In this document: in pieces, positions 1 to 22,368 of the stretch
Numbering within the stretch: position 1 is the first letter of the stretch
How the letters are laid out: each line of letters starts with the position of its first letter
Source: Saccoglossus kowalevskii
Taxonomy: Eukaryota > Hemichordata > Enteropneusta > Harrimaniidae
Direction: 5' to 3'
Assembly (NCBI RefSeq): GCF_000003605.2
Contig: NW_003118435.1
Location: forward strand, 183,707 to 206,074
DNA: 22,368 nucleotides
Translations under genes and position numbers: made by a program
Notes under the pieces: model-generated
Database searches by the model: none
Seen by the model: only the letters and a program-made list of their open reading frames with translations
What the model was told of the DNA's origin: nothing

Positions 1-408
1 GGGTGCAGTTCTTTTGGGTTTGGGGGTGCAAATGCCCATCTGGTATTTGAAGCATATAACCCACCTAATGACAAGAGACTGTCAAATACAAGAAAAATGG
101 AAATGAAAAGATCCATAGTTGAAGATGAAGTATCTTTACCAGTACTTCTGGTTCTTTCTTCTGCAACAAAAAAAGGCTTAGCGAATAGCGTGACAGACTG
201 GATTAGTTATTTGGAGAAAGAGATTGGACAAAACCACACCGATTTTATAAATGCTGCATTTACAACTAGTATGAAGTTACAACATCACTCATGTAGAATA
301 GCAATAATAGCAAGAACAAGAGAAGATGCCATTGTAGAACTAAAAAAACGACGAGATGGTAAACCATCACCTAATTGTGTTGAAGGCATTTCCAGTGATG
401 TCAGAACT
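1..408 (+). other. Ketosynthase C-terminus and KS-AT linker
   Basis: Frame 1 from base 1 reads GCSSFGFGGANAH, the conserved end of the condensing domain (family form SFGFGGTNAH). The catalytic Cys and the two His motifs of the KS lie upstream of the window, so KS activity cannot be judged. Residues 23-136 are the KS-AT linker, leading into the AT start PIVFVFSGMG at r137. Confidence 0.93.
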
Positions 409-3400
409 CCAATAGTGTTTGTATTTTCCGGCATGGGTACTCAGTGGTGGGGAATGTCACGGCAGTTAATGAATTGTATTCCTCATTTTCGTGATACAAT
501 AAAGGTAAATGTGTAATAAATACTATATACTTATAAGGTTTTGGGCTCTTTGGGATTTCATTGTGTGTTCTAACAAAAACACGTATTTATGTATTTGCAG
601 AAAATAGACATGATTCTTCATAAATGTGGTGCTAAGTGGTCACTTGAACACTTGCTTATGCAAGAAACTGATCCAGATATCATATCCAGTACAGGTAAGG
701 TCATTGTTAACTTTTTGTACCAAGTGTAATAAAATATTCAATTACAACACTTGGTAATCTCCTAAAGTAAAACATAATAGTACAAAGACTAACTTAAACA
801 AACACACTAACTATTAGATGTAGTCACTCAACTCAGAACTAGCTCAACAACGTAATCTAGAAAAGAAATCTATGTTTATTAGTGGGTAATAATGTCTCAA
901 TTATAATCTGATCGGACATACTAACAGTACATCAAACAGTGTTTCTTGGTTTATAAGGTGGCAGGGTGGGTTAGCTGTCATTACTAAAGGCATATATGTA
1001 ATACTAAAACACTTCTGGAAACTTTTGTTATATAACTTTTGACCTAAAATACAGCACGTTGTAGTGATTCCAATAATCATAGACATTTTTCTATTTTTTT
1101 TACAGAAATTGCACAGCCTTCTATTTTCGCAGTACAAATTGGACTTGTTGAAATATGGCGATCTTGTGGCGTGAATCCACATGCTATTGTTGGTCATAGT
1201 GTTGGTGAAGTAGCAGCAGCTTACACAGCTGGCCTGCTAACACTAGAAGATGCTGTAGGTATAATTTATAATCGTGGGAAGCAATTGATGAAGACAAGTG
1301 GTTCTGGTACAATGCTAGCAGTACTACATTCCATTGAAGAAATAAAAGATCGATTAGCAAGCAGTAATCTCAATGATGAATTGGATATTGCTACCATAAA
1401 TAGTCCTTTGCAAATTGTGATTTCAGGTAAAACAAGTGCAATTGAGCAATTTAGTGAAGAATTGAAGGCAGACGGTATTAAAAGCATAAGTTTAAAGGTC
1501 AATAATGCGTTTCACAGTCATCAGCAAGACACCATCAAAATGACTTTTCTAAAGCAGTTGGAGTTTCTTTTTGAACACAAGAAAAGAGATGTTGCACTAA
1601 ATGCTCAATCTATTCCTATGCTATCAACAGTCACTAATCAATACATATCCTCTGAGAATACCATGGATCCCGAATACTGGTGGAAAAATGTACGACACCA
1701 AGTGAAGTTTAAGACAGCCATTGAAATACTATTGAATGAAGGATATACTGTTTTCCTTGAAATTGGACCTCATCCAGCATTAATACCTCCTATGAATGAA
1801 GTTGCACTAATGAAGAAGCCACAAGCTAGTAAGTTTTCTGTGACACATTCAATAAAAAGACCAAAAGATATACAGTTGTTAGCAGATGACATGATTCATT
1901 TGTGCCAGGCGCTAGGAAAACTCTTTGTTGATGGCTGCAAGGTAGATCTACAAGTATTATTTTTTACCAGAGAATGTGAACAGGTACACGTCCCAACTTA
2001 TCCATGGCAGCGAGTACATTGCACTGTTGAAACCAAAATCAATAGGAGTATTTACAGATTCCCCATGGAAAACCATGCTTTACTTGGCAAAGAACTAGAA
2101 GTATCTTCATTTTCCAACTCTCAGACCCATGTCTGGAATTCTGAGATTTCTCAAGTTGTTCTTCCATGGATGAATGATCATATTGCCCAAGGTAATGTTA
2201 TTTTGCCAGCAACTGCATATGTTGAAACTGCATTAGCAGCATCCAGGTCTATGACTACTGATGATACAGAGATACATCTGGAGAATTTAGCTTTCAAAAG
2301 ATTCCTATATGCACCAGCTACAAGTGCAATACTTGAAACTACATTGGAAAAAGACGGAGAGCTTTCAAGGTTTTCACTGAGAAGTAGAGATAAGAATAAG
2401 AATCAATGGACATTGCATGCAACAGGTGATATCAAATTGATGCTGGATAATTGTGATAGTAATTCACCCAACACTTGGCATCTTTCAAAGTGTGATTTTC
2501 AGCAAGTTAGATCCAGATGTCAACAGATGATTTCTCACGATGAATTCTATTTGAAAGCTGCTCAAAGTGGATTTAACTTGGGAGATTCTTTCCACTCTGT
2601 TAACAGCGTTCTACACAATGCTGATTTTTCAGAGGTACTGCTCTTTGCTGAGAGATCTGCAGCTGTAAAGAGAGAGGGTAAGAAGTACATATTCCATCCT
2701 GCCTACATGGATGCAGTATTTCAGACATTTGCAGTTATCCAACTGGCCAAAGATAAAAATGACGCAGATGATAATGGAATAACATTTGATCCAGTGTTTG
2801 GTGTACCACACTCAATTCGAGAGATGAAATTCAAGGGAATGGTACCTAATTCAATAATCTGTCACATTGAAGTAGATAAAAAAGACCAGGATGAATATGT
2901 TTGCAAAGCTGTAATGACTGATGCAATAAATGGCAAAGTGTTCTGCTTTATGAACCATTTGAAATTTGCAAAGATTTTAACTTCAACAGAACAGCTTCGG
3001 CTGTGGTCGGTATGCTGGCAGAAACTTTCTTCTACTGAAGTCACTCCTGTCAAACACATAAGAGAAGAAGGGCTCACAGAAAACCTACAATCCGATAAGG
3101 CAGCTATAGAAAATGTAACATTACCTCCCAATAATGAAGCAAAAGCTGTTCTGGTTGTCCCTGATCTGCAAGGTTTTTCCCAATGGTTGAAAGTTATGCT
3201 CAAGTCAAATAAAGTTAAAGTAAAGATTACTTCATCATACACTCCAGACAGAAAGGAATGGGACATTGAATTGAAGAAGGCCATTAATGTTTTTATGCCA
3301 ACTGATATTGTCATAACATCATCGCTGGATGTTAACCAAGATGTGAACTCACTAAATTCCTTCAGCAGTTTCACACGTACCCAGTCTGTTGGAGGATTGC

Positions 3401-6400
3401 TTGCTATAAAGGTATACAGTATGCTTAACCAACTTAAAGTATGGCCTATACCAACGTTGTGGTTGTTGACACGCTGTTCTCAAGCTGTTGTTGAATATGA
3501 AGAAACTATACCTTTAAATGTTGGAGTTCAAGCAGTAGGTATAACAATTATGCATGAGGATCCAGAGTTTCCAGTCAAAACAGTTGACCTTCCATTGCAC
3601 TACGATGCTTCGAAACTAGCAGAAGATGTATCAAATATAATCCAAAGACCAATACCTTTTGAAAATCAGATTGCTCTCAGACCTTTGAGAAGTACAGAAT
3701 TTGGGCACACACCTGAAACAGACATAGTGTATGACGTACATGCACCAAGACTGCTAGTTGAACCAAATTTAACTTTCACTGGTAGAGTAACAGTAGATAA
3801 ATGGAGGATGGAAATGAGTGATGCTCGATTCCAATTTAGACACGAATCAACCGCATTTGGTGATGTGCAGGCAGGCAAAGTCAAGATAAAAGTTGAAGCA
3901 TTTATGCCACTCATAGCCGATGATGAATCATCATTAGAAGGCAGTAGTTTTAGTGTATTCGCTGGAAAAATAACAAAGAAGGGCAAGAATGTATTAGCTC
4001 ATGTGTCTGACGAAAAAGTGATTGGCTTGGTAGACTGTTTGTCATCTACAATACTCATTAATGAGGATTACATTTGCAAGATACCAGACGGAATATCGTT
4101 TGTAGACGCTGTTCATATTGCTAGAAAACAACTGCTACCATACCTTGCATTGACGCATATTGCCCAAGTACATGAACAATCTACAATATTGATGTGTGTA
4201 AATGATGAGGTTGATGAGTATGAAACAGTAATAACAAAAATAGGGAAATTACTGGGTGTGCAAAGACTGACCAACATAAAGTTGGGAAGAGAAACAAGTG
4301 CCCTTGTGAATGGAGGTGAAAGTGTGCTTCCTATCAGTCAGGTTGACAATTTTGATCTTATAATTTTGAGACTAGGCGAGGATCTGAAGCAAGAGCAAAT
4401 TAGCCTGATATGTTCTAAATTGAATCCATTCGGAAAAATCCTTTTCTTCCATGAAAGAAATTTGGTAAAGTTTCCACCTAATATACAAGTACTGAGTCTA
4501 GATTTTGGAATGTTTCATAGTCGGGCACGAGGGCGTGTGATCTTTCAAGAAAAGATGCTAGAACTCATGCATTTTCTCCTTCGCCATGATGATGTATCAT
4601 CTAGATGCGAGTCAGAATCACCTACCAAGTTGTTATCTGAAGTTTCTGCATTAAGGAAAGTTGAGTTGAATATGACAGTTGTATCAGTTGATAAGGTTGA
4701 AATTCCTGTTTTGTTTGATATGGATGATGGTGATATCAGGTTCAATCCCAGAGCATCTTATTTGATTACGGGTGGAAACAAAGGTTTTGGATTAGAGATG
4801 GTGGAATGGCTTGCCAATAGTGGAGCTGGTTATATCATTACATTCTCAAGAAGTGCACCAGATGTAGAAGTTCTACACAAATTTGATATAATAAAGAAGA
4901 GAACAAATATCAATATACTACCAATGAGAGTTGATGTCACAAACAGACATTCACTAAAAAACGCCTTTGCCAAGATTAAAGAAAATGGAACAATACCAGC
5001 ATTGGAAGGAATATTCCATTGTGCAGTAGTTTTCCACGACAACCTACTCAAGGATATTACTGAGAAAGAGTGGAATTCAGTGATGGCGGCAAAAGCCTAT
5101 GGTGCTCTTCTTCTACATCAACTCATCAAGCAGTTTGAATTCCCAATCAAATATTTTGTCATGATATCATCAATTATTGCACTTATTGGAAACTCAGGCC
5201 AAGCTAGCTACTGTTCTGCAAACATGTTCTTAACTAGTCTGAGTCAGCTGAGAAAGAGTCAAGGTCTACCAGCCACTGTTCTGCATGCAGGGGTTATCAA
5301 TTCAACCGGGTTTGCTGCCAGAAAGGGGTATGTTGCTATATGGGATGCAAAAGGAGTGAAGAGTATGTCACCTGCACAACTCCTCTATGTCCTTGGTTGC
5401 ATGATCAAGTCAAAATGCACAGCGCTAGGAATTACATCCATGTACAATAAGAAGAAATACTACAATATGAATAAACACATGGTCACCAGTCACATGAAAG
5501 AGGATCCTGGTCTATTTTCTATCTTTAAAAAGCTAATCACAATTGAAGACAAATACTTAGAAGATTCTAATGATACTGTGGTGAACAAAATTCGTTCAGA
5601 AGATCTATCATCAGCCATCAGAATAATAGAAGAACATGTTTGTGATTATTTGAGACGAGTTCTTGGAATATCAGGGGAGGTGCAAACTGATGTTTCGCCT
5701 TTTACACTTGGTCTTGATTCTATGATGTCAGCAGAAATGAGTTCTGTATTAACAAATCTGTTTGGTGTCTTACTTCAGCCAGTTGAGCTTTTGAATGACC
5801 AAATTACAATAAATAGATTAAGTGAAGAAATTTATTATAAGGTGATTGAGAGCAGCAGCTCAGGAAATAATACGCAAGTGACAATTCAAGAACACAGTGT
5901 TCCCAAGCTGTTTGCAATTGATGGGCCACTTCAGAAATGTCATTCGCAGCTAGTATGTTTCCCACCTAATGGTGGAGGAACTTCCGTATTCAAGCATTGG
6001 TACCAATCATTGCATAAACATGGTATTCAGACAGTAGTTGTCCAGCCCCCAGGATGGGAGGGCCGAGAAAGCGAGAAACCTACAAAGCAGTTACAAAGTC
6101 TGGTTTCACTTATTGGTGATCAACTACAGCCAATACTCTTGACAGGGAAGCATATCTTTTATGGCCATAGTCTTGGAAGTTTGATTGCATTTGAAGTAGC
6201 ACACTACATATTTGCTAACTATGGTATGTGTCCAGTCCAGCTGTTTGTCGGTGGCTGGTATGCTCCATCAATGCCATATCCACATCCCAATGATTACAAT
6301 ATTCCATTCGCAGCTCTATACACCTCATCCAATATCTCAAACATGTTACGAGAATATGGAGCATTCAAATTCATAGATGATGCTGTATTAAACAACTCAG

Positions 6401-6726
6401 CTGTACTGGCAAGACTACTGCCATGTTTTGAAGCAGGACTGGAAATTTGCAAATTGTACAAATGTGCACACGTAACACAGCTGCCGTGTGATCTGACTGT
6501 TTTTGCAGGCAGTAAAGACGAGTTTATCAAGCCATACATGGTGGATGATTGGCAAAAAGAAATAAACCAAGAGTCAAAATTCAAGAAAATCACTCTCCCT
6601 GGGAAACATCACTTTCTTTTGACATCTACACCTAGGTTGCTCAAAGAGATATTTGAATGCAGTGGAAACATGAAACATAATGCTGCAGTTCAAAGTGGTC
6701 ATGAATCTGATCTGTTGTTATATTAG
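1..6726 (+). CDS. Animal FAS-like type I polyketide synthase, 3' part (KS end-AT-DH-psiKR-psiER-KR-ACP-TE)
   Basis: Join of 1-504, 601-694 and 1106-6726: 6216 nt, 2072 codons without internal stop, ending at TAG 6724-6726. The 5' end lies outside the window, because base 1 is already inside the ketosynthase. Exon junctions are seen directly: donor GTAAAT at 505, acceptor TTTGCAG ending 600, donor GTAAGG at 695, acceptor TTTACAG ending 1105. The reading phase joins correctly and restores the AT motif EIAQPSIFAVQ across the last junction. Visible residues: KS end r1-22, KS-AT linker r23-136, AT r137-441, DH r519-826, structural KR half r876-1066, degenerate ER r1076-1361, KR r1411-1651, ACP r1699-1776, TE r1809-2049, then a 23-residue tail. 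Motifs such as SGMGTQWWGM and GFGLE are close to animal fatty acid synthase. There is room for only about 50 residues between DH and the KR half, so the pseudo-methyltransferase block of FAS is absent. Predicted cytosolic iterative synthase making a beta-reduced, unsaturated acyl product. The product itself cannot be told from sequence. Confidence 0.95.
505..600 (+). other. PKS intron, phase 0
   Basis: A 96-bp intron: donor AAAG|GTAAAT, acceptor TATTTGCAG|AAAA. The frame on both sides is open, and joining gives DTIKKIDMIL inside the AT domain. Reading through would hit a stop (TAA) a few codons after the donor. Confidence 0.93.
695..1105 (+). other. PKS intron, phase 1
   Basis: A 411-bp intron: donor ACAG|GTAAGG, acceptor after a T-rich tract TTTTTTTTACAG. 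Joining completes a Glu codon (G+AA) and restores the AT segment before GHSVG. The intron is AT-rich with stops in all frames I checked, and nothing else is recognised inside it. Confidence 0.93.
2062..2985 (+). other. Dehydratase domain (double hot dog), catalytic dyad intact
   Basis: The domain opens at NHALLGKEL. The HxxxGxxxxP motif reads HIAQGNVILP, with catalytic His r558 at 2179-2181. The second half-site reads HPAYMDAVFQ, with catalytic Asp r735 at 2710-2712 and the following Gln kept. It should remove water from the beta-hydroxyacyl intermediate produced by the KR, leaving an enoyl chain. Both catalytic residues are present, so activity is likely. Confidence 0.9.
3133..3705 (+). other. 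Structural (non-catalytic) ketoreductase half
   Basis: The region contains PTLWLLTRCSQAV, then GVQAVGITIMHEDPEF and a V-D-L-P segment. This matches the order of the KR structural subdomain in type I synthases (LWLVTRGAQ, then GLGR..EHPE, then DL). It normally sits before the ER and packs against the catalytic KR. There is no nucleotide-binding motif, as expected for this half. Confidence 0.75.
3733..4590 (+). other. Degenerate enoylreductase domain (pseudo-ER)
   Basis: The position is exactly where an ER should be, between the structural KR half and the catalytic KR. Several ER landmarks can be aligned by eye: AGKITKKGKNV against the GVVxxVGxxV strand, KIPDGISFVDA against IPDGLSFEEA, and LNPFGKILFF against LAPFGRFVEI. 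The NADPH-binding segment at about 4183-4260, normally LIHAAxGGVGQAA, reads ILMCVNDEVDEYETV and has lost every glycine of the GGVG loop. The LNFRD-like substrate segment is also missing. I infer a folded scaffold that cannot reduce enoyl chains. Homology to ER is judged from pattern only. Confidence 0.72.
4738..5460 (+). other. Catalytic ketoreductase domain, complete active site
   Basis: The Rossmann motif is LITGGNKGFGLEMVEW, very close to the FAS KR form (TGGxGGFGLELAQW). The catalytic set is complete: Lys r1529 (5092-5094), Ser r1555 (5170-5172), Tyr r1568 (5209-5211) and Asn r1572 (5221-5223), in the pattern MISS...GQASYCSAN. The LDD signature of B-type bacterial PKS ketoreductases is absent (AVVFHD instead), as in FAS. 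It reduces the beta-keto group with NADPH. Confidence 0.92.
5602..5835 (+). other. Acyl carrier protein domain
   Basis: A four-helix-sized segment of about 78 residues with the phosphopantetheine attachment motif LGLDSMMSAEM. The modified Ser is r1738 at 5719-5721. There is a single carrier domain, consistent with an iterative synthase. A Ser/Gly-rich linker (SSSSGNN) follows before the TE. Confidence 0.93.
5932..6654 (+). other. C-terminal thioesterase, alpha/beta hydrolase of the type-II/GrsT/OLAH pattern
   Basis: The domain starts VCFPPNGGGTSVFKHW, a pattern typical of stand-alone type II thioesterases and the mammalian medium-chain hydrolase OLAH. The triad is visible: Ser r1888 in GHSLGS (6169-6171), Asp r2004 in GSKDEF (6517-6519) and His r2034 in GKHHFLL (6607-6609). 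It should release the finished chain from the ACP by hydrolysis, or possibly cyclisation. The 23-residue tail after it shows no motif. Many described animal FAS-like PKSs end at the ACP, so a fused TE is informative about product release. Confidence 0.9.
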
Positions 6727-7260
6727 GAGATAGAACATTTTGAAGTGTTGTCATGTACTTGTATTGATCTGTTTGTTGTTTACTGAGAGATTTTCACACT
6801 ATGCAATGATGATACGAATTGCTCTACCTGGTGGAAAACATAATATCACAAACTTCCAGCAAGTGTTAGATTATCTTATCTACTGATTTGGACCAGAAGC
6901 TTCAGCATCACTCGATATTCACTGCATAACAGTTATGTCAATCTTTTCTTATATATATGCTTAGCAGAGACTGAATACTAGCCACACTGTCATTGACAGT
7001 TTTTACTACAAAGTTTACAAACTGTGTTTGTTGCTATCATGGCCTGATATTCACTCTACAAGTGAAAAAATGGTTGAAGGAGATAGTCAGCGTGATAGTC
7101 TAGGTGTGTATTTCACACACACTAAGATTAGATTCGGATAATCTTGCCAATGTGCATTCAAACAAAAACCCATATTTATATTACAATGTCTTTATCGACC
7201 TTCTAGCAATGACTGAAAATTCAGTTTCAATAAATTGTTGAATTCAATTAAATTTCTCAT
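6727..7260 (+). other. Probable PKS 3' UTR
   Basis: Non-coding, AT-rich sequence directly after the PKS stop codon. The first canonical AATAAA downstream of the stop is at 7229-7234, with an ATTAAA variant at 7247-7252. The transcript end is therefore placed at about 7245-7275, by inference. Confidence 0.5.
7229..7234 (+). terminator. Candidate polyadenylation signal of the PKS gene
   Basis: AATAAA, the first canonical hexamer after the stop codon, about 500 bp into the 3' UTR. ATTAAA follows at 7247-7252. No cleavage-site evidence is available. Confidence 0.5.
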
Positions 7261-8571
7261 CATGCAAACTCGGCTTATTTGCATTGTTAATAGAATCATC
7301 AGTAATGAGTGGCTGAACAACATTACCTTATTTTACTTTATTCTGCTATTAACCTATTACCAGGACTCTAGAGTTGTCAGTTGTTGAGTTTATTTTGTTT
7401 TTATGTATGACCTGGTTGATCACTCGTTCATCTGCAGCAATGTATTGTCACACAGACGGTATTGTGGACGATAACATCACTGCTCACAATATTGCATTCG
7501 ACTCCTGGTATACCATTATAAACAAGTTATGACATGACACGACACAGACTAAGTTCTTTTCATTGTATGTTTTTATATGAGTACATGTTCGGTTACACCT
7601 CATGACAATATTAACAAGAGATGAATGCACTTATTCAAAATGTTTGGCAGATTAAAAGCTCTGGCAATATTATATATATATACCACATTTTAAAAACCCT
7701 CAGATCTGTTTCCACAAATCATTGAACTTAGTGCATTTTCGCTACAAGATGTACAAGTTGAATCAATTTTGAATTAAAACTTGAAACGAATGCTTGTCAA
7801 TACGCGTGATGTATATTGTATTTGTCTTTGAACAGTATGGTCTTTGTAAATTTTATTTATAAATCATTAATTGATCATGGCATGATCTAATACTAATGTA
7901 TAGCCAGCAACGTATACCCAATTATTTTTTCTAAGTAATCAAAATCATTTGTGTTATTATGTAGATAACAGATAATTATATTATATTACAACTGCGTATG
8001 TAAACATTGTATCACATGTTATCGAGATTTCGCATTATTGTCATTTAACAGTATATTGTACAATCAACATCAGTGCAATGTTTTCGAAATTTCGCACTTC
8101 TTTACATTTAATATAACTACTATTTTGTTAACTGCCGTCATACTTCAGAATACATGTGTCTGAAATAGTCACAGAAGACTAAAAGTAGCATCCGTATATG
8201 GGTTATGTATAGACAACAGTAGATTTAGAATATTGGGAGGGCAGGTGTTTGACCGTAGATAACAAAAGGTCGCCTGCCGCATTACGTTTTTACAATTAAC
8301 TGAAACAATTTATTGTTTTGTGAATATGAAATCAAACCATATGTGCATTTACATTTCCAATTTTCCCACAGTGTTTTAGAAAAAAACATGTCTTGTATAA
8401 TCTCTTTTAATTTCTTGAGTTGAGGAACAATCACCAAAATAGTTGGTTAGTCTGATCTTTTGCACATAAAATCCGAATTTGTTTCATCAAAAACTAGACG
8501 TAATGTGACATTTTGTTTGTGTGGTTCAAAATTAAGGTTTATTTCCGTGAAAATTACAGAAAACAAATTTA

Positions 8572-8607
8572 ACCCAATTTGAGCGGAGGAAATTGCGCTC
8601 AATGGGT
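8572..8607. repeat. Inverted repeat, 12-bp stem with small bulge
   Basis: ACCCA (8572-8576) pairs with TGGGT (8603-8607), and TTGAGCG (8579-8585) pairs with CGCTCAA (8596-8602). The loop is 10 nt, with a 2-nt bulge on the left arm. The origin is unknown; it could be a repeat remnant or a structured RNA. Confidence 0.6.
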
Positions 8608-9197
8608 CAATATGTATGACACATTGGTAGACTTAATTTCTCATGCAATGTTCAGTTTTAAGGAAGATCACTTACTGTATCCCACAATATTATTCTTACA
8701 AGCCTTTGTGTGTGTTGTGAACAATCACCATTAAGTTTCAACTATTGAATTCTAGACATAGGCTGATCTTCTCATCTCATGTAGCACATTAACTTCCATA
8801 CTACCACTATGTTCATGTTATTGTGATATGTACATTGTGTTGAAATCTTTATACATCATCTTTTTAAACTTGTCTAATCGGAAATACTGTTTCAGAACCT
8901 TGATTGAAAATATTGTATCATGATTGTAATTTTCACACATGAACTGAGTGTAATTGTTTACACAATTCGTGGTATGATTAGTATAAGTGACAGGAAATCA
9001 TTATGATTTTTCATTATTTTGACGCCGGTCAAACAGCGTTTTGAAAATGATCATCTTGAAAATAAAAGTTCGGCATTTTAAAAATGATGTATACTTGGTA
9101 TAATAATTTCCATATTCAAATTAACATGTAACAAAACAAAACATTTTTTTAACAAAAAATTGAATTTTATATGTTCAGAAAATGTCAATAATAATTG

Positions 9198-9221
9198 TAC
9201 AACGCATGCGTGTACTTCCGG
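9198..9221. promoter_or_regulatory. Palindromic CGCATGCG (NRF-1-like) next to an ETS-like site
   Basis: ACGCATGCGT at 9202-9211 is a perfect 10-bp palindrome flanked by GTAC on both sides. ACTTCCGG (9214-9221), the reverse of the ETS core CCGGAAGT, follows directly. This pairing resembles CpG-type metazoan promoters, but no gene start is recognised on either strand nearby, so regulatory function is only a suggestion. Confidence 0.25.
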
Positions 9222-10800
9222 TCGTTTCTGAATCTGCATCAACTTACGTAGTGAGTCGTAGTTATACTGATTTTAGTACATTTATGTCAATATTTGGCAC
9301 GTACAACACGTCTGGGAATGTCATTGGCATCCTATTAATTCAACTTATTTATAAATATATTGGACATGTCACAAACGATCACTGTTGTCATACACTGCTC
9401 GTTTGGTGACGAATAATTCCTGTTATCGATTCAAATGGTTTCTGACTGGATTAAAGGTCATTGTATTGTAACAACGTATACTGAATTGGTACCAATTGAT
9501 TTCATTTGGTCAAGAACTAAATACATGAAATCCATTGTAGATTATATAAATGTGACGCTAATCTCATTGTTATTGCTTTCTAATATGTTAATATGACAAT
9601 GCTTTTAATGACTTTCCATGCGACAAGTGTGCCACATATATGGTCTGTCGTCATGCAAATTGATATCATGAATTTAATTTCCCTGGGTAATATGAAATAT
9701 ATTAACCGGGAAAACCATTAGTATATTTTACAAAATTCGAATTTGTTTGTGAGGCAGATTTTAAAAGAAAAAATCCGTTATTGATTTATGTATAACATTA
9801 TGTATCATAGTCTTTAAATAATTAACGCATTCGCACGTGAATAAAACAATTGTTATATTTAGTCCATTGAGTTGAATGTATTATTAAACAGATTGAGCTT
9901 TAAAATGTATTAATGTTTATACGTCCTCAGCTTATGACACAAGTCATCTTGTTTCACGCCAAAAAATATGTAATGTTATTTGGTGTTTAATGAATTGATC
10001 ACTACCCAGCATCAATGAAGACAAAGTGCATGTAATATGACCATTGACATTATACACACAAGGTAAATACGAGTATTACTCACTGATGCAAACACAAACA
10101 GTTGAATGGCAATGTATGTAAACACTAAAGAATGATTTAGATACTGTATTCAAGTTTATAAAATTGTATTCAGTGTTAGAGTTGGTGGGTAAGTTGTGAT
10201 TTTATTCTGATACTGGTTTATGGAATTCTAGTATAGTCCCTTAACATATTTCAGATCTGGTTTCCCAGTATCAATGCAGTGGAGAGCGTGTTTACGTGGC
10301 AATTATGCTTATATAGCTTACAACTGAGGAATTGCAAAAATACGAAAGTTCAATGATACTTCACATAGTCTGGTATGTGCCTGTCCGTGATACGCTTGAG
10401 TATACCAGATCCTTTCCTCCATTGTGAAGAGTTTGTTGATTAATGACGTAGCCTACTTGAATTGAGAATATGTACATAGAAACAGATGCATTATGTGCCA
10501 AAATACAAAGTGTTTAATCAAGCGGTATATTTTAAGCTGTTGAGACAAAAACTATTCATAAATCAGCATCTGACCTGTGATTGAATGCAGTCATTAAATG
10601 TTAGTTGGAATTGCAAGGAATATAGCAGTGCGGTGTGTATCACGCACACTTTACGGTATCACCATATCGCCCTTGTTTTGGGCGGATTTGGAGGGGACTT
10701 CCAGGGCACAAGAGCTCATGAAATAACAATTACACAAACCAGATCTTCAAATCATGTCATAATACATGTATCTCGAATTTGTTATAAATAATAAACAGAG

Positions 10801-12559
10801 AATTAACACCAGACTTATAAATTGCGTTTGTCCATGGTGCGGCATAGTCTGTATAAAAAATGCCACTCCTGTCCCGTTTTTCACCCCCCTAACAGTAGAA
10901 GAAAATGACCAGTTCCTGGGAAGCCCGTCACCAGCCGGTCCGTAGACTGTTCTCCGAGTATTGCCTTGCTTACATCACGTCTTGTATGATTTGGTCTTTT
11001 TCAAAGGCTAAAGGTCGAGATATGCAAATTTATCGAATCGTATAGCAAATGTCCTGAAGTCTGTTTTCGGCAGTGAGGCGTTAAAACAAGCAGAGGAAAC
11101 TGGGGGTAATCAAGTGTAATGCAAGTGTACCAGTTACGAGTAACAAGAGTTAGTAAAATGATAATAAATAGAATAATATACCTGACACGGCCCGATGCTA
11201 GGAAGCAACGTATGCTAAGGATCGGGAAACAAGATTAAATCACTATCAAAATATAAATTTATTTGTTCTGTACGCGCAAGGTATCACTGGAGTGTACAGT
11301 ATATGAAAAATGAAAATTACTTGCAATGAATTACTATACTTTCAATATTGGTCAAATACAATACATACCTCAAACGTCAAGACCTCAAGACTTAATTCTC
11401 CAACTATATGCGACTAGAATATAAATACAAGTACAAGTATGATGAATGCACACATTAACCCACAGAATCAGAAATGTACATATATAACCGGCATGTACAT
11501 ATATGGCCAAGCATTCAGAACATCCCATGAATATATCATCTTTACACCAGACTACGGCTGGGTTTTACAACAACGAACTCCAATTCGGTTATTCTAACAG
11601 TGGCTTCAGAAATACCACCAACCCGCATTAATTACTATATAAATTAAACTCGTGGCCCAATACGCTAACAATAATATTATAACAGCTTAGCTCGATGGCA
11701 ATAATATTATAATTATTCGGAATGCTTGCCCCTTAAAATAGTTGATCAATTTTAATATGTTGTTATACAAATATAAATCATAGGCATAGGGATTTGATAT
11801 AAATACAAATATGTATGCAAACACAGTTCAGTTCGTGAAAATGGCCACAGTAACGTAGCAATGTACACTAAACGCTGGAATGGCGACGTAGAATCTCGTA
11901 CTTAAGACGATGACGTTCACACCTTGCACTTCTCCCGCCATAGGGATGAGGTAATCAGTCGGCGATGTTCACGCAACTTTCGGTTCTTTACCTATAGGGC
12001 TGAAGTAGTCAGTCGACGAACACGAACTCGGTGAACGGCAGAGCAGACTTTCAGTATTGATAACGTACAACCGGACATAACAGTGTTGAAATACATGCGG
12101 TGAATTGGTACTCAATTGCATTACACGCCACGTGGCAACACCAGGATTTTGCCACACCTGCCGACTACTCGAGGTATTGTAATGAATGACCAAGAATTGA
12201 AGTCTGACGACCCCTTTATAGACAACGTATGGGGCGTCTCCCTAGCTTAATAGTAAATGTGTTGGGAACATACAAAAATAAAAATAGCACAATTCCAAAC
12301 TATGAAATGCACCAATACCCAATCAATGTAAACACAAAATGGATACTATACCATTTTGTTCACATTTAATTTCTGTAACTACTTGACACGTATTGGATAA
12401 ATAAAGCCACAATTCATCACTACACACAAAGCAGATTTGACTATCATTCATTTTGCATATTCGAGTAGGACTAAACTCCAATTCCCTGTCGATTAACACA
12501 GTTATGATCAAGTAATCCGGTTAGTTTAATCTTTTAATTAGATTAAAATATGCATGATT
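10801..12559. other. Intergenic, probably repeat-derived
   Basis: No coding region recognised. It contains short local repeats. A ~24-bp motif starting ATAGGG occurs at 11940 and 11994 (period 54). A 14-bp direct repeat CAATAATATTATAA occurs at 11669 and 11699, and ATGTACATATAT occurs at 11474 and 11493. An 8-bp-stem hairpin (TTTAATCT/AGATTAAA, 12525-12547) lies just before the tandem repeat region. No transposon termini could be defined. Confidence 0.4.
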
Positions 12560-20141: not shown

Positions 20142-21877
20142 CTATTGTTCACATGTTGTGGTGTGCATTGTTTCGGAGCTAATTCGACGCAAGCTTCTGT
20201 TAGATGAGCAGACTTCCTTCGACCAGATTTCCATTTTGGCATCCGTAAGTGGATTCTGGTGTCCGTGTTTGGTCTCAGTTACCCCGCTTATAGGATCAAT
20301 TGTATGCATTTCACCTACTTCCTCTTTTTCTGGCGATCTACATGGTCCTAATAATATCAAGAAAACAGGCAAATAGGAGTACATGTAGCGCACGAATAGA
20401 AATAACAAGAAACATTGTCTTGAAAAAAGTTCGGAATATGTAGGACACTGATAAAGATAGAGCCAACACACTCAATATTGTTGACAAAGCACCTTCTAAT
20501 ATGGGCCAGCCTAGAAGGTAGAGAGCGTGGACTGAACGCTTATTTCGAGAGTGATGTGGTGCAATAACAAAAGCATAGGTGATATGAGCGGAAAAGTCCA
20601 CACTGAAACCTATACATATGATAATATTAATCATCGCTACAGCGTCCAGTTTCACATGCCATAGCGTCATATAGCCAATTACACCGAGTGAGATAGATGC
20701 GATTGCCAGTGTCACATATAACGAACACAGTGGATGCGGTATCAAAATAAGGGACACAAGGAACATTGCGCCTGCTGCAATGCCTATGTTTTGCAGAGTG
20801 TTGGACAGTATAGCAATGTATTGTTCATAAAAGACGAAGGCGGGATGGTACGCGAACATCTGGATGTCTGACTTGTCGGCTATGCGACGCGATTCCACCA
20901 TGATGTTGCGTTCACGGTTCGCTGTACTAGAATCTGACGAGGAAATCAAAAACCGAGATGCAACGATACTGGTGTTGTCGTCGTTGAATTGGATGTCAGT
21001 GTCAAACACGGTGGGGCGAACTAGAAACATGCTCCTTAAAATTTGAATAAACTGGTCTTTGTTCGAATAAGTAATATTATTCTGTTCCATAAAAACAAGA
21101 AACTCGGTTAACCAGAACTGAACAGTAGAATTGCTACTGTGGAAATAATCGTTCACTTTCAGTTCTTCAATTACGTCATACAGTTTGGTTTGAACGATTT
21201 TACTGGAATAGTCAACCTCTTCGTCGATGGTAAATGACACTATCGGGCCATAAACTTTGAAATATTCATCATCCAAATCGTAGAATGTGGTTGCATACGA
21301 ATCATCATTGGCCAAGTTTTTAAGTCGAATGCCTTTCTGTAGATGTAGAGATCCTCATATTGCTACACTGAGATATGCGGCGTATAACACAATCGTCACA
21401 AGCTTCACCGGCAATTTGGTGATGAACGGCCCGTAATGAACGCGAAAGAACTTTAAATTACAAAAACGTGTTCGCTTGCTTCGTCGTCTGGGAGTGTTTT
21501 ATCTGACCACCCACCTGCGCAAAAAAGTCGATATGTCGTAGACGGAAACTCTTTCTTTGGTAGCACTTTCATGCAAGAGCAACAGTGACGATTGGCAGCT
21601 TCACGGCGTCCGAAGAGTGCCATGCACGCCCCAAAGAAAGTGATTTGGTAGAGGTAGTCGAAAAGTACGGCGACTCCGGTGTATAAACAGAATATCTGCA
21701 CGGCAGGAAAGAACGAAATGGCTCCAATACAGAATGCCAGAAAATCTGTAATGCTTGTTATTGTGATGGATAGGGCTGCCTCGGAATATGCATGTCCCAT
21801 TCGCTCTTCTACGGTGAACTTCGACGGTGTTTTCCTCCAAGCAACTATCATAATAAACATATCATCAACTCCAATTC
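20142..21877 (-). pseudogene. PTCHD3-like Patched/RND-type membrane protein, 3' part, disrupted
   Basis: Read on the minus strand. After an acceptor TTATAG (last base 21878), the exon from 21877 opens with IGVDDMFIMI, the RND/Patched motif of the first half. It continues through SITITSITDFLAFCIGA, the sterol-sensing segment AVLFDYLYQITFFGACMA and GRREAANRHC, all typical of invertebrate PTCHD3-like proteins. The second extracellular loop starts NLANDDSYATTFYD. The second-half motif GFSVDFSAHITYAF and the ending LPVFLILLGPC follow. The frame breaks three times: about +2 nt at 21454-21455, TGA at 21355-21357 (where relatives have Tyr), and about -2 nt near 20371. Homologous sequence continues through each break, with no room for introns. 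In addition, two Gly of the conserved FGALHG-like stretch are replaced (IRALHV). An ~80-residue tail ends at TAG 20142-20144. The family is thought to transport or sense sterol-like lipids. The 5' exons are not visible. Confidence 0.85.
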
Positions 21878-22368
21878 CTATAAGATATTAGAAAAAATAT
21901 TACTCAACAATGTTATCTATTAATTAATGTTACAGCCAAAACAAAGTGAGCTTGGACATTCAGTTGTGAGACATGACAAAATAAACGGTGCCAGTGATAG
22001 ATTTCGAGAATGAAAGAACAAAATAAACGCAATCAAAGACGCCGACCACGCGCGTTGGAAATAAATAAAACGCGTTGCGACGAGAAATCTCACCTGCATC
22101 TTTCACTCACGCAAACGCACACACATGCTATTTCCGTATATTGAATACGTTGGCAACGGAAGGGACAAGTTTAAATCATCTTTGTATTAACACAACTTGA
22201 AAGCAATAGTCTCACACTGAATATACTAAACATTCAATGAAGCGGACTGCGACGGTTAAGACGAAAAACATGTGACAGTACGATTATGCTCGTCTACTAC
22301 ACGCCCGGGAACTACACGTTCAAGTATCCAACTTCCCAATACAAAACATGATTAGTATCAGCAATAAT
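21878..22368 (-). other. Probable intron upstream of the Patched-like exon
   Basis: The exon starting at 21877 needs one more base of its first Gly codon from an upstream exon (phase 1 junction). Reading the minus strand from 22368 to 21878, I find no open, hydrophobic segment like the preceding transmembrane helices. The previous exon therefore lies outside the window. Confidence 0.55.

Follow-up and report, generated by a model that had tools for sequence, protein, structure and literature searches.

A probable inactive enoylreductase domain, likely kept as a scaffold, in an iterative polyketide synthase of Saccoglossus kowalevskii

A 22,368-nucleotide stretch of the 572-Mb genome of the hemichordate Saccoglossus kowalevskii (contig NW_003118435.1, positions 183,707 to 206,074; hereafter the window) contains, on its + strand, the 3' portion of a gene for a type I polyketide synthase (PKS). 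One segment of the encoded protein is probably an inactive enoylreductase domain (psiER) of an iterative single-module animal PKS, which would act as a cofactor-free scaffold in an enzyme making unsaturated products. In the mechanism we propose, the enoylreductase (ER) would fold as a medium-chain-dehydrogenase ER between a structural ketoreductase subdomain (psiKR) and the ketoreductase (KR), could neither reduce double bonds nor bind NADPH, and would be retained as the holder of the psiKR–ER–KR region, most likely via a homodimer interface of the kind that ER domains form in related megasynthases. Once past the KR and the dehydratase (DH), chains would exit via the thioesterase (TE) with double bonds intact, as polyenes or other unsaturated acids. 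The dimeric scaffolding is proposed by analogy, the polyene or other unsaturated product is suggested by the DH and KR motifs combined with the dead ER, and the product would presumably be released as a free acid.

Judged from its sequence, the ER has lost both its NADPH loop and its substrate segment and is predicted to be inactive. The domain and its altered sites are as follows.

3733..4737, + strand: whole ER domain, predicted to be inactive (homology, predicted fold, column alignment)
3901..3957, + strand: approximate place of the LNFxD...GME segment of live ERs, here shortened and of unrelated sequence (column alignment)
4201..4224, + strand: NDEVDEYE, replacing the glycine-rich NADPH loop (column alignment)
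4450..4455, + strand: His-Glu where live ERs have a conserved Gly-Lys (EIGK) (column alignment)

At the glycine loop column, live ERs read, for example, HSATGGVGLAA and the window reads VNDEVDEYETV, such that the GGVG or GGLG of active ERs corresponds to EVDE. An earlier note on this DNA had described exactly this replacement, and its statement that the substrate segment is gone agrees with the columns of the LNFxD...GME segment. The lysine of the ER GK motif is catalytic. None of the three marks of an active ER (glycine loop, GK, and LNFxD...GME) is found in the window ER. Among the 24 live rows of alignment A4, the loop pattern occurs in all 24, rows that were largely chosen by this loop, the lysine pattern in 23, and the NxxD pattern in 20, with several of the misses being shortened rows. 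Fatty acid synthase (FAS) genes on two other contigs of this genome (C3223 and C2890) keep LNFRD, HSGSGGVGQ, and GKYD, and a third (C4579) was read up to LNFRD only. The FAS gene on C3223 also carries a long STLDQYATGLAWS-like repeat array (one frame) between exons (L028:4214-6241; overlap L012:148-748).

The segment is confirmed as a homolog of the ER domains of FASs and PKSs, which belong to the medium-chain dehydrogenase/reductase (MDR) superfamily, and its fold is predicted to be retained. Taken by itself, the ER segment finds nothing in Pfam at E≤1 and matches PDB sequences weakly (CurK ER, E 0.044; MAS-like ER, E 0.27). A family-level search, which the earlier note had proposed, succeeded with a hidden Markov model (HMM) built from 25 bacterial relatives with live-looking ERs. 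The window ER scored 31.4 bits (best domain), over model positions 71-150 only, and the ER of a duplicate gene described below scored 29.7 bits. Shuffled copies were reported in 586 of 1000 cases, with a top score of 8.0 bits. When the window and duplicate ERs were compared with the 25 ERs by hhalign, the result was 95.8% over 259 columns, a span indicating that the second half of the ER is covered as well; 30 column shuffles reached at most 1.67%. A chance resemblance to ERs is ruled out by these two sets of shuffles.

Structure prediction, made with an alignment of 30 bacterial rows that include 24 live-looking ERs, gave an MDR fold positioned between psiKR and KR; the kept fold agrees with the earlier note. 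The top structural match of the ER model is CurF, an ER-derived cyclopropanase. An unrelated fold is ruled out by the structural matches, Foldseek, and hhalign. The landmarks named previously were located at 4081-4104 (IPDGISFV) and 4420-4443 (LNPFGKIL). Of the extent first given, 3733..4590, the start stands; the end does not, as the ER continues to ~4737, where the KR starts, and ~49 residues had been omitted.

Evidence on selection comes from the duplicate PKS gene, which lies on contig C3863 (L025) and is readable from approximately residue 80. The two copies share 85% amino acid identity and 91% identity in coding DNA, and their 3' flanks are 72-88% identical in seven pieces over ~4 kb; the duplicate and its flank together align with window positions 1317-10924. 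The dS of 0.19 between the copies was taken as too high for an allele. According to Nei–Gojobori (NG86) counts, the ratio dN/dS (omega) is 0.29 for the acyltransferase (AT), 0.30 for DH, 0.30 for KR, 0.26 for TE, 0.27 (0.05-1.19) for the acyl carrier protein (ACP), 0.57 (0.35-0.96) for psiKR, 0.50 (0.35-0.71) for ER, and 0.38 for the entire exon. Since ER omega was at least 1 in 3 of 5000 bootstraps, the data support purifying selection on the ER domain overall. A pseudogene is ruled out by the open frames of both copies and the whole-exon omega. The contrast of ER with KR and DH, which the earlier note had wanted drawn across related species, was thus obtained on the duplicate pair (0.50 versus 0.30 and 0.30). 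Relative to the pooled catalytic domains, ER dN is 2.06-fold as high (0 of 5000 permutations as high), and the difference in omega has a p value of 0.026.

Constraint appears uneven within the ER. Its front part has an omega of 0.63 (95% 0.37-1.13) and its tail 0.27 (0.09-0.79), and two further parts stand out.

4180..4353, + strand: former cofactor part (omega 1.32, 95% 0.53-6.54; 18 nonsynonymous and 4 synonymous changes)
4354..4590, + strand: the stretch that follows within the Rossmann subdomain (omega 0.21, 95% 0.08-0.49)

The dN contrast between these two parts has a permutation p value of 0.005, and Fisher's test on rounded change counts gives p 0.049. The pattern indicates, rather than proves, that the NADPH site may be free to drift and that the remainder is constrained. 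Because omega appears uneven in this way, the earlier description of the ER as retained by selection rather than decaying holds for the domain (omega 0.50) and probably not for its site (1.32 versus 0.21). We expect 4354-4590 to contain the ER–ER dimer strand, and its low omega is simply consistent with a stabilizing homodimer like that of the lovastatin nonaketide synthase LovB.

Relatives were collected by a KR-alignment scan of bacterial genomes, which yielded 51 relatives from 99 stretches; a scan of genome contigs with a single protein gave nine pattern stretches and no relatives. A motif scan combined with reading sorted the 51 loci into 25 with a live-looking ER, at least six with a degenerate ER, and 20 that were set aside because their frame was cut or a loop motif was missing from its expected position. 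The number six is a lower bound, since only five of the 20 set-aside loci were scored with the ER HMM (L035 4.6, L058 7.3, L060 6.1, L062 5.8, and L067 -2.0 bits). Alignments A4 and A5 contain 30 of the 51 loci. The six degenerate-ER PKSs (L034, L041, L043, L045, L053, and L056, from Acidobacteriota, Nitrosomonas, Chitinophaga, and Opitutaceae) resemble the window PKS in domain order and size. Like the window ER, they have a changed glycine loop and GK and an altered or missing LNFxD segment, and these ERs are probably inactive as well. By whole-sequence score they are less decayed: L034, L045, L053, and L056 reach 135-233 bits and L041 and L043 73-81 bits, compared with 32 bits for the window ER. 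The glycine-loop pattern was counted twice in seven degenerate rows, but both matches were taken as lying elsewhere in the chain and the column reading was preferred.

An AT-to-ACP tree of 42 rows was made by a quick method with the ER columns excluded. Its alignment had 45 rows (42 loci, the window, the duplicate, and L026), from which L055, L067, and L076 were removed as long branches; L051, L064, L069, L070, L078, L079, L080, L082, and L083 were omitted for a short 5' side or by choice. On this tree the eight degenerate rows, including the window and its duplicate, need four label changes, at least three of them forced, which implies that the ER site was lost several times with the domain retained. 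In a KR-only tree of 57 rows that cover all 51 loci, for which the bootstrap is not settled, the window KR lies beside L034 (97/85) and apart from three FAS rows. The AT-to-ACP tree, which has no FAS rows, places the window in a different neighborhood, not with L034.

The remaining domains of the gene are arranged as follows.

1..504, + strand: exon with the ketosynthase (KS) C-terminal extension, KS–AT linker, and AT start (Pfam KAsynt_C_assoc, CurL-like_PKS_C, Acyl_transf_1; splice donor at 505)
601..694, + strand: small AT exon flanked by GT-AG introns (sequence)
1106..6726, + strand: large exon AT-DH-psiKR-ER-KR-ACP-TE (stop codon 6724-6726)
2074..2997, + strand: dehydratase domain (Pfam PKS_DH_N, PS-DH; motifs HIAQGNVILP and HPAYMDAVFQ present)
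3136..3696, + strand: psiKR structural subdomain (model of psiKR–ER–KR, domain positions)
4741..5337, + strand: ketoreductase domain (Pfam KR 3.9e-47; NADPH motif TGGNKGFG and S-Y-N kept)
5623..5847, + strand: acyl carrier protein (Pfam PP-binding; LGLDS)
5935..6657, + strand: thioesterase (Pfam Thioesterase 1.9e-22; GHSLGS)

The introns are GT-AG, with exon boundaries at ..504, 601-694, and 1106-6726. As stated earlier, the frame across the ER is open (stop-to-stop 1048-6726), here as part of a spliced gene. The AT motifs GHSVGE and AFHS are present, and the claim that the neighboring catalytic domains are intact holds by motifs for AT, DH, KR, ACP, and TE; the KS is unreadable owing to a stretch of N upstream. 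Pfam gives no match at E≤1 between DH and KR, and the gap between DH and psiKR is <50 residues, which leaves no room for a methyltransferase domain.

Several observations weigh against an inactive ER retained as a scaffold. The predicted model leans toward an ER because 24 of the 30 alignment rows are live-looking ERs, its Foldseek TMq is 0.42-0.53 among the best 50 rows listed, and its confidence score (pLDDT) is <50 at 97 of 350 residues, with dips within the Rossmann part too. For the psiKR–ER–KR model the root-mean-square deviations are 10.4 Å to MAS-like, 13.0 Å to EcPKS1, and 16.5 Å to LovB, meaning that domain order and folds agree and domain placement fails to superpose; several of the top structural matches are KR-only. 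The omega values are NG86 counts from a single duplicate pair, the cofactor part has just four synonymous changes, and the ER breakpoints were picked after sequence inspection and delimit short parts (58 and 79 codons). For psiKR, omega was at least 1 in 99 of 5000 bootstraps. The catalytic part of the KS lies upstream of the window, where 9907 of 9951 fetched bases are N. In addition, the ER is dispensable in one relative (L035, DH-KR-ACP in Pfam), and the DH–KR stretch of a hybrid of PKS and nonribosomal peptide synthetase (PKS-NRPS) on contig C1512 matches no ER (-1.8 bits).

A tentative and rather unlikely reading is that this animal PKS descends from bacteria, the ER having died before or soon after arrival and selection having since divided it between a cofactor part that drifts and a structural part that is conserved. 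If true, nature would have run an experiment in which the architectural and catalytic roles of an ER come apart, repeated independently in several bacterial lineages. It is unlikely that a FAS partner or a free reductase carries out the reduction in trans, giving a partly or fully saturated product. Such trans reduction has a precedent in LovB, which recruits LovC (PMC7870829), and FAS genes with an intact ER are present in this genome. However, purified EcPKS1 makes polyenes with no partner (PMC7280274), and in 517 window frames of at least 25 residues the ER HMM found no second ER, only one frame at E 0.54 besides the PKS frame, a search for partners confined to the window rather than genome-wide.

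We consider it improbable that the ER is a vestige being lost, its constraint reflecting folding in a large chain or past activity. The omega of 1.32 in the cofactor part, the front-part interval that reaches 1.13, and the missing ER of L035 would fit such a vestige, but the omega of 0.21 in 4354-4590, the absence of stops and frameshifts wherever the two duplicates are readable, and the repeated retention of degenerate ERs on the AT-to-ACP tree argue otherwise. That the pocket was rebuilt for a different ligand or reaction is extremely improbable: the match to CurF demonstrates that altered ER chemistry exists, but ordinary ERs match about as well as CurF does (MAS and JamJ lie within 1 of its Z), and in sliding windows the regions of the lost site belong to the faster-evolving ER parts, whereas a new active site should behave in the opposite way. 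A dead ER kept as a scaffold is the reading we prefer.

Other loci were noted in passing. The PKS-NRPS gene on C1512 of the same genome (L015:4121-9901, L026:2-6760) has KS and AT and, by Pfam, DH, KR, ACP, condensation, and partial AMP-binding domains. Contig C1736 has KS fragments (L014 ~2235-2556 and 4706-5134), one with an internal TGA, and a further match to the window KS–AT region at 26.5% identity; these may be remains of a PKS copy that decayed or was rearranged, and N follows them. Exons of a likely Patched/sterol-sensing-domain gene occupy window positions 20338-21887 on the minus strand, with a Pfam match at 21453-21887 only and nothing at E≤1 for the frame 20338-21354. The mitochondrial contig C4830 (L030, L031, L032; 17,037 bases) has codon use suggesting AGR=Ser, AAA=Lys, and probably ATA=Ile, which would fit enteropneusts; together with the spliced FAS and PKS genes, this contig marks the genome as that of an animal.

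The principle of a PKS that keeps a dead ER is already published for LovB (PMC7870829) and for EcPKS1 and EcPKS2 of Elysia chlorotica (PMC7280274); the earlier note had called a dead ER a known route to polyenes. A Saccoglossus kowalevskii PKS sequence with a methylmalonate motif is mentioned in PMC7280274, so hemichordate members of the superfamily are already in print; among the matches listed in literature searches on hemichordates, Saccoglossus, and enteropneusts, no title concerns the window gene. Mollusc 'PKS clade' genes, which are distinct from animal FAS-like PKSs, have few introns, near the N-terminus, and occur with or without a condensation domain (PMC10764717). The window gene, whose KS sequence is unreadable, and the PKS-NRPS on C1512 resemble them. 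For the animal FAS-like PKSs, defined by a KS that groups with animal FAS, KR grouping served as a proxy, and on the KR-only tree the KR of the window gene appears to fall outside the FAS KRs.

EcPKS1 and EcPKS2 are such animal iterative FAS-like PKSs, with ERs in which key NADPH residues are missing, and in vitro EcPKS1 produces polyene pyrones (PMC7280274). As described there, they differ from the window PKS in lacking a TE and carrying a methyltransferase-type domain. Against a FAS ER fragment of the window's genome their ERs score 107.7 and 113.1 bits, whereas neither FAS nor EcPKS chains were listed when the window ER was searched with phmmer (E≤10), and the window ER is therefore more decayed. 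LovB of Aspergillus terreus resembles the window PKS at the ER, where the fold is apparently kept and the site lost. Its methyltransferase domain is intact, its product is released by a separate thioesterase (LovG), and LovC serves as trans ER (PMC7870829), whereas the window PKS has a DH–psiKR gap too small for a methyltransferase and its own terminal TE. The degenerate ERs of several bacterial relatives suggest that site decay, and not just domain deletion, is a recurrent route to unsaturated products, and an unconstrained cofactor part beside a constrained remainder gives a sequence-level hint that dead ERs are kept for structure. Among enzymes with a dead ER, the window PKS would be a TE-ended, methyltransferase-less animal addition.
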